A DNA stretch of 64,000 nucleotides. It comes from Tabrizicola soli. Lineage in GTDB: Bacteria; Pseudomonadota; Alphaproteobacteria; Rhodobacterales; Rhodobacteraceae. The stretch lies in assembly GCF_015999335.1 (NCBI RefSeq), contig NZ_JAEACP010000007.1, positions 62,001 through 126,000 of the forward strand, read 5' to 3'. Under the pieces are notes generated by a model. The model was not told where the DNA came from, searched no databases, and worked only from the letters and a program-made list of their open reading frames with translations. This document shows positions 40,582-46,348 of this stretch, one piece after another. A program made the translations under genes and the position numbers. Positions within the stretch are counted from its first letter, which is position 1. Every line of letters starts with the position of its first letter.

Positions 40582-41019
40582 ATGAGCGACAGCGACCTCA
40601 TCAAGCTCTACTCCACCCGTATCCTGGGCCTCGCCGCCGATATCCCGCATCTCGGCCGGCTGAAGGCCCCGCAGGGCAGCGCCCGCCGCCGCTCGCCGCT
40701 CTGCGGCTCGACCGTGACGGCGGATGTGGTGCTGCAGGACGGCCGCGTCGCCGAATTCGCCCAGGACGTCAAGGCCTGCGCTCTCGGCCAGGCCTCGGCG
40801 GCGGTGCTGGGCGGGGCGGTCCTCGGCCGCAGCCTGCCCGAGCTGCAAGCCGCCCGCGACGCGCTGCGCGCCATGCTCAAGGACGGCGGCCCGGTCCCCG
40901 CAGCCCCTTTCGACGGCTACGAGGTCCTCCTGCCCGCTCGCGACTACAAGAACCGCCACGCCTCGATCCTGCTCGCGCTGGAAGCCGCCTGCGAGGCGAT
41001 GGAGGCCGCCGCCGCATGA
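40582..41019 (+). CDS. IscU/SufU-like iron-sulfur cluster scaffold protein
   Basis: 145-aa NifU N-terminal-fold protein. The three candidate ligand cysteines are C41 (SPLCGSTVTADV), C66 (VKACALGQASAAVL) and C137 (ALEAACEAM), matching SufU-type spacing. It would assemble or carry Fe-S clusters; no isc or suf genes are adjacent. The gene ends at the terminator shared with the opposite-strand small ORF. Confidence 0.88.
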   Translation: MSDSDLIKLYSTRILGLAADIPHLGRLKAPQGSARRRSPLCGSTVTADVVLQDGRVAEFAQDVKACALGQASAAVLGGAVLGRSLPELQAARDALRAMLKDGGPVPAAPFDGYEVLLPARDYKNRHASILLALEAACEAMEAAAA

Positions 41020-41053
41020 AAAAACCGCCGCGCATCCGGAGGGATGGCGGCGG
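41019..41053 (-). terminator. Terminator of the small SOS-box gene
   Basis: On the minus strand CCGCCGC-CATCC-CTCC-GGATG-C-GCGGCGG is followed by TTTTTT: a long two-part stem with a perfect T-run. It ends the transcript that begins upstream of 41245. Confidence 0.88.
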
Positions 41054-41122
41054 CAGGAGCGCCTCTGGATCGGACGGCGGGCAAAGGCCGTCACCGGGGG
41101 GACAGAGCGCGGGGCAGAAACC

Positions 41123-41245
41123 TCAGGCCAGGCCGGGCAGCGACAGCACGGCGAACACAAGCACGACAAGAGCGGTCAGCCCGACCAGATCCTCGGCCGC
41201 GCCGCGCGGGCTGTGGGTCAGCAGGGTCTTCATGGCGTCTTTCAT
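41123..41245 (-). CDS. Putative SOS-regulated single-span membrane peptide (40 aa)
   Basis: A short frame with a strong GGAGG ribosome site 5 bases before the ATG at 41243-41245, and stop TGA at 41123-41125. The N-terminal half is charged (MKDAMKTLLTHSPRGAAEDL) and the C-terminal half is one membrane span (VGLTALVVLVFAVLSLPGLA). A LexA-type box lies 54 bases upstream and a strong terminator lies downstream, so it is a complete one-gene unit. By size and topology it recalls SOS-induced division inhibitors such as Caulobacter SidA, but I see no sequence match. An ATG at 41257 is an alternative start. Confidence 0.68.
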   Translation of the reverse strand: MKDAMKTLLTHSPRGAAEDLVGLTALVVLVFAVLSLPGLA

Positions 41246-41299
41246 CGCATCCTCCATGCTTGTTGCCGAATTGTTCTCACAAGAACCCGACCCTGTAAA

Positions 41300-41314
41300 G
41301 AACTTTTTAAGAAC
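41300..41314 (-). promoter_or_regulatory. LexA (SOS) box, alphaproteobacterial type
   Basis: The minus strand reads GTTC-TTAAAAA-GTTC, an exact match to the GTTC-N7-GTTC operator known for LexA of alphaproteobacteria including Rhodobacter. It precedes the 40-aa membrane peptide gene. A TTTACA / AACAAT pair with an 18-base spacer just downstream could be the promoter. A second palindrome, GTTCT-CACA-AGAAC, lies at 41273-41286. Confidence 0.75.
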
Positions 41315-41337
41315 AAACGCGAACCCATGCGGAACGT

Positions 41338-41389: not shown

Positions 41390-46348
<4,959 letters not shown>

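Follow-up and report, generated by a model that had tools for sequence, protein, structure and literature searches.

We found that the stretch of DNA analysed here (the window, 64,000 nucleotides) carries on its minus strand a real, self-contained unit that recurs across the Rhodobacteraceae and consists of an operator array, a gene for a 40-residue peptide, and a structured 3' RNA (Table 1). The unit, its conservation, its coding frame, and its RNA fold were computed from the DNA. As a whole, we read it as a regulated, damage-responsive unit in which a LexA-like array would control a membrane peptide together with a C-rich regulatory RNA, and we give this reading a probability of about 0.5.

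The original prediction had listed an exact GTTC-N7-GTTC box on the minus strand, a strong GGAGG site, a 40-codon frame, and a terminator with six Ts, and each of these is present. Its claim that they make up a complete transcription unit also held: the small-protein gene is real and has its own sigma-70-like promoter and terminator. The list was accurate in every part named, but it omitted the structured 3' RNA and the second operator site.

Table 1. Positions of the parts of the unit and of the ctrA gene upstream, in window coordinates.
Feature	Position	Strand	Remark
Upstream extra exact GTTCN7GTTC	41321..41335	-	Matrix score 12.8
Second GTTC of the extra box	41324-41321	-	Conserved half-site, 10 bp from the main box
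Main GTTCN7GTTC box, GTTCTTAAAAAGTTC	41300..41314	-	Abuts the start of the -35; matrix score 9.0
-35-like hexamer TTTACA	41294..41299	-	Promoter scan; invariant in 28 genus loci
-10-like hexamer AACAAT	41270..41275	-	Promoter scan
Second LexA-like site GAAC-N7-CAAC	41262..41276	-	Overlaps the -10; orientation as in recA/lexA boxes
Shine-Dalgarno GGAGG	41251..41255	-	SD-like motif in 101/104 loci
Membrane-peptide gene, 40 aa (predicted)	41123..41245	-	ATG at 41245; stop 41125-41123 included
Structured 3' RNA including terminator	41019..41122	-	Fold z -3.62; without an Rfam family
Closing stem, 5' arm, GCGCTCTG	41103..41110	-	Fold and genus alignment
Closing stem, 3' arm, CAGAGGCGC	41059..41067	-	One bulged base; fold and genus alignment
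Intrinsic terminator	41019..41054	-	Bulged GC-rich stem, then six T; seen in the fold
ctrA (NCBIfam RespRegCtrARhodob, 430 bits)	45638-46348	-	Upstream of ligA-recG and the unit

The Peptide Gene and Its Conservation

A search of 32 genomes of the same genus recovered the peptide in 31, and the one in which it is missing is only 59% complete. Thirty of these loci (L001-L030) were taken further, the 31st match being left out, and 28 entered the alignments after L023 and L029 had failed the frame rule. Among the 27 relatives with names, 10 are Tabrizicola and 5 Rhodobacter, and the others carry the names of higher taxa. All 28 aligned genes have 40 codons. Third codon positions, which the original prediction had singled out as a check, are the most variable, with a nucleotide diversity of 0.426 compared with 0.223 and 0.099 at the first and second positions. 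Similarly, the pN/pS ratio of the 28 genes is 0.313 in frame versus 0.962 and 3.275 in the two shifted frames. Judged by these codon statistics, the frame is under purifying selection at the amino-acid level.

Searched with the genus profile, 104 of 295 genomes of the family, about one per genus, gave matches, some of the weakest of which may be due to chance. We examined 40 of the 104, mostly the best ones; in these 40 loci from other genera, the choice between a 39- and a 40-residue start was partly manual. The gene recG lies upstream in 37 of them. In the other three (L081, L103, and L106), recG was not found within the stretch and the SufU-like neighbour is retained, so the unit seems to stand alone. 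A 50-row profile run across the class matched 5 of 385 genomes, a set in which the share of the family is unstated, and all five are Rhodobacteraceae. The small gene is a core chromosomal gene, not a sporadic one, given its presence through the genus and the family-wide promoter pattern described below.

As the original prediction had proposed, the peptide has a single hydrophobic stretch at its C-terminal side (19 residues with a mean Kyte-Doolittle value of 2.44). In the predicted structure (mean pLDDT 80.6, pTM 0.44), a short N-terminal helix (residues 2-10) is followed by a long helix (12-35), and the model thus has the feature of a short, single-span inner-membrane peptide. Pfam, NCBIfam, and PHROGs gave no convincing match, the best being single members of the 50 at E values of 0.025-0.074, and the PDB chains gave no match at E values up to 1. 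We regard the product as a predicted membrane peptide, for which a SidA-like role is, by analogy, a candidate at most.

The Promoter Pattern and the Neighbourhood

The hexamer pair TTTACA-18-AACAAT (41299-41270) was the sole promoter-like match to the consensus within the 501 bp scanned; shuffled sequences gave 0.0 on average. Under its simple terminator rule, the same promoter-scan tool reported no terminator in the window unit, presumably because the stem, which the fold shows, is bulged. The window promoter contains four phased GTTC half-sites with spacers of N7, N6, and N7. Exact GTTCN7GTTC boxes number 97 in the 4.68 Mb genome; a box alone is therefore weak evidence, and conservation decides. 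Two other exact boxes on the minus strand of the window, at 667-653 (score 9.0) and 32601-32587 (score 2.1), are probably due to chance.

Written as one long exact pattern made up of two GTTC, the -35, GAAC, and CAAC, the promoter was matched in 171 of the 295 family genomes, with at most one match per table row, and the reversed control gave 0 matches. By this comparison, no other piece of the unit is as well conserved as the promoter. At 36 of 37 loci found through the pattern only, a peptide-like hydrophobic frame of 38-42 residues follows, under a rule (36-48 residues, hydrophobic) that favours the expected answer and in a set sharing six genomes with the 40 loci above; all 36 have recG upstream. 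The remaining locus, L198 (in genome G282), has the promoter pattern without a frame that satisfies the rule downstream, which may reflect a loss or an altered start.

The conservation of frame and box in relatives, which the original prediction had named as a test, was seen both within the genus and in other genera: GTTCN7GTTC is present in 28 of 28 genus loci and in 39 of 40 other-genus loci (in the promoter alignment, the register is shifted in rows L080 and L086), and within the genus the terminator, box, and frame are all conserved. The promoter set comprised 104 loci from 98 genomes, six of which are represented twice. Of the 101 anchored loci, 90 have a GTTC half-site at 10 bp upstream of the box and 34 a further GTTC at 20 or 21 bp upstream, and the spacing from the third GTTC to GAAC is 23 nt in 93.

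Upstream of the unit in the window stand recG, ligA, and ctrA, each above the curated cut-offs. The order ctrA-ligA-recG precedes the unit in 10 of the 12 genera checked; a search of the 9-kb stretch in G065 and G206 found none of the three. The linkage to recG-ligA that the original prediction had noted is thus correct as far as it went, but the presence of ctrA in the same cluster and the family-wide range had been missed.

LexA as a Possible Reader of the Operator

Could LexA be the protein that reads this array? In the family genomes, the box runs GAACN7GAAC relative to the gene in 30 of 30 lexA promoters and in 29 of 29 mapped recA promoters, i.e., in a fixed orientation. For each gene, these control loci were taken from 30 of 41 genomes (L168 being without a mapped recA start), and the 30 lexA and 29 recA promoters were used to build a LexA matrix. 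Each of the 104 peptide promoters scored higher than the 99% level set by 1482 background segments. Their median score is 15.1, compared with 26.4 for recA/lexA boxes that had been left out (lowest 11.0). The two sites in the window score 12.8 and 9.0, versus 15.0 for the uvrA box of the same genome, where the exact boxes also include those of ImuA-like (23.7), Y-family polymerase-like (19.8), radical SAM (20.4), and photolyase-like (22.5) genes; except for radical SAM, these gene identities come from matches that do not reach the curated cut-offs, in part owing to truncation of the proteins. The boxes in front of the radical SAM gene (rSAM_PA0069) and the photolyase-like gene (L031 and L035) mark these as possible SOS members, and three more sites in this genome (L034, L036, and L039) have a similar matrix score.

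Genomes without a detectable lexA bear on the same question. The gene was not found in 13 of the 295 family genomes, 11 of which have recA; to these we added G181, in which the only match of the lexA search is weak and UmuD-like (L227, an interpretive label). In six of these 12 genomes, the exact recA box is kept, which suggests that lexA is simply missing from the assembly there, and in G039 the recA start is unclear. The exact recA box is absent from the other five (G181, G198, G060, G188, and G059). The peptide promoter pattern was kept in two of the five (G181, with its first half-site lost, and G059) and not found in three, which is to be read against the background of 171/295 and is confounded by incomplete genomes. 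G059 is 86% complete and fragmented. G181 is nearly closed (3 contigs), and the persistence of the pattern there makes LexA less likely to be the sole reader. The UmuD-like gene of G181 lies beside a polymerase-like gene (L227, L220, and L222), in what appears to be a natural loss of lexA. As for the LexA control proposed in the original prediction, the sites rise above the background, but they score below genuine boxes, and the pattern survives in two genomes lacking both a detected lexA and an exact recA box. We consider LexA control of the peptide promoter plausible on these sequence comparisons, at slightly better than even odds.

A Structured RNA Downstream of the Frame

The 3' RNA of the unit is ~100-220 nt long. 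Between the stop codon and the terminator, the genus keeps the block CTGCCCCGCG-TCTG...CCAGA-GCGC nearly unchanged. The fold z-score given for the window in Table 1 compares with a median of -4.6 for 27 RNAs from the genus and one of -4.2 for 31 from other genera, and 30 of the latter 31 lie below -2. By rule, the terminator was not found in one genus locus (L027) nor in 9 of the 40 other-genus loci. Covariation within the genus is nearly absent (one of 20 predicted pairs changed on both sides) because the closing stem hardly varies. Between genera, the arms clearly covary: the mean pairing energy is -22.3 kcal/mol for arms from the same locus and -16.05 (sd 0.44) after permutation, and 0 of 5000 permutations reached the real value. 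This calculation covered 55 of 57 loci, two with short arms being omitted.

The RNAs of other genera are rich in two C-rich motifs. In 34 of them, we counted 37 copies of CTGTCCC (0.9 expected) and 44 of CTGCCTG (0.7 expected), and 75-76% of the motif positions are unpaired in the predicted folds, compared with 42% overall. The 28 genus RNAs hold 24 copies of CTGTCCC (0.8 expected) and 0 of CTGCCTG, and the window RNA has one CTGTCCC. With about one CUGUCCC per RNA and no CUGCCUG in the genus, the repeated loops are a trait of other genera, a point that weighs against the overall reading given at the outset. Rfam 15 yielded no family at the gathering score; its three sub-threshold matches, the best at an E value of 0.29, lie on the other strand. 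We also considered whether the RNA hides the unit's own Shine-Dalgarno site and rejected this, as the predicted accessibility is 0.23, 0.22, and 0.22 with the RNA and 0.20, 0.24, and 0.23 without it. The apparently unhidden ribosome site makes action in trans, or a bound protein, more likely.

Proposed Mechanism and Alternatives

These features suggest a sigma-70 promoter flanked by LexA-like half-sites, with a phased GTTC array reaching the -35 and an opposite GAAC-N7-CAAC lying over the -10. Expression would be held low by a repressor, LexA being the most likely one, and DNA damage would relieve the repression. If transcription starts near the conserved CAAC, one transcript of ~260-330 nt would result. 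We infer that its 40-residue inner-membrane peptide most likely slows division or energy use during DNA repair, and that the unpaired, C-rich loops of the 3' RNA would act in trans on G-rich sites of mRNAs, perhaps after release by RNase E, as with other Rhodobacter 3' UTR sRNAs. More tentatively, and at less than even odds, the whole may be a bifunctional, family-specific transcript tied to ctrA-ligA-recG, in which the peptide works at the membrane or divisome and the C-rich RNA on many mRNAs or a protein, so that one array couples damage to both division and post-transcriptional control.

It is also conceivable, with a probability somewhat short of even, that the GTTC array is read by another regulator that oligomerises on 10-11 bp repeats and that the link to damage is incidental or secondary. 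G059 retains the whole promoter pattern and G181 most of it, and neither has a detected lexA or an exact recA box; upstream of the main box, successive GTTC copies lie 10 bp apart versus 11 bp in LexA boxes; and the spacer is nearly fixed as TYAWAAA, whereas the spacers of recA/lexA boxes vary and end in T. On the other hand, the half-sites are extended to TGTTCYCR as LexA boxes are, and the recA/lexA boxes agree in spacing and orientation with the site over the -10 (which in L112 and L096 is an exact GTTCN7GTTC on the other strand). Moreover, the incomplete, fragmented state of G059 weakens its testimony, and the loss of lexA in G181 could be recent.

The remaining alternatives concern the products. 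The 3' RNA might be the main one, a trans-acting sRNA, and the peptide a minor or regulatory frame whose translation, for example, controls processing. Its covarying arms and unpaired C-rich motifs would fit this, as would the processed 3' UTR sRNAs that R. sphaeroides is reported to make from small-ORF mRNAs (PMC9779115, PMC8625941). We nevertheless think it unlikely, given that the peptide is conserved in its amino acids and over the family. Still more doubtful is a type I toxin-like arrangement, in which the peptide is a membrane toxin and the RNA structure limits its translation. A small hydrophobic peptide behind an SOS-like promoter does recall TisB, but no antisense RNA was identified in the sequence, the 3' RNA leaves the predicted accessibility of the ribosome site unchanged, and the gene is core chromosomal rather than sporadic. 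Finally, the abundance of exact boxes in the genome might suggest that a chance frame has come to lie behind a chance box. A chance open frame is ruled out by its presence through the genus, the codon statistics, and the family loci, and with the family-wide promoter pattern added, the likelihood of the combined coincidence is practically nil.

If the damage-responsive reading is true, the family gains a candidate damage-response peptide, with an RNA arm added to the response, and the conserved element behind the ctrA-ligA-recG cluster is accounted for. In any case, the combination of a core gene and a structured RNA is found repeatedly in a widespread family, is without a match in the protein and RNA libraries searched, and is open to experiment in R. 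sphaeroides and other model strains. We found no description of the unit in the open PMC papers searched, where an sRNA listed only in supplements could be identical.

Comparison with Known Systems

E. coli TisB is a short hydrophobic membrane peptide made from an SOS-type promoter. The unit described here differs from it in being a conserved core gene, for which an antisense antitoxin is not known.

Caulobacter SidA, a 29-residue inner-membrane peptide that is described as SOS-induced and as inhibiting division by acting on FtsW (PMC4211646), resembles the unit by analogy: both involve a short, single-span hydrophobic peptide in an alphaproteobacterium, with LexA control a candidate in our case. 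However, the peptide of the unit has 40 residues, an RNA structure is part of the same transcript, and there are two LexA-like sites. The same report describes Caulobacter DidA, a small membrane division inhibitor that is SOS-independent and driven by DriD (PMC4211646). DidA shares with the unit the small membrane protein, and a non-LexA damage regulator of this kind would suit the alternative that a protein other than LexA reads the array.

The RNA can be compared with Sinorhizobium EcpR1, a stress-induced trans-sRNA with a GC-rich loop that targets gcrA and dnaA, and which shows that alphaproteobacterial cell-cycle mRNAs can be targets of an RNA with a C-rich loop (PMC4414408). Both are alphaproteobacterial RNAs whose structure leaves a C-rich loop unpaired, both have a terminator, and a cell-cycle link is suspected for the unit, too. 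EcpR1 differs in its loop sequence, its position downstream of divK-pleD, and its occurrence in Rhizobiales, and the available text of that paper describes no coding frame for it and has recG only as a cloning fragment (PMC4414408).

A like architecture is seen in R. sphaeroides RSP_7527-UdsC, a small ORF with a 3' UTR sRNA that is reported to be RpoHII-dependent (PMC9779115, PMC8625941, PMC6238624): here, too, a small ORF is followed, within a transcript of ~300 nt, by a 3' RNA that closes with a terminator. We considered whether the two are identical and rejected this. The published 5' end of UdsC (1,289,874) falls in L120 of G082, on a small-ORF unit of this kind with another ORF, whereas the relative of the unit lies near 1,264,770 in G082, ~25 kb apart, and the ORF and RNA are both different. 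Given these separate loci, UdsC and the relative of the unit are different genes with a like architecture.
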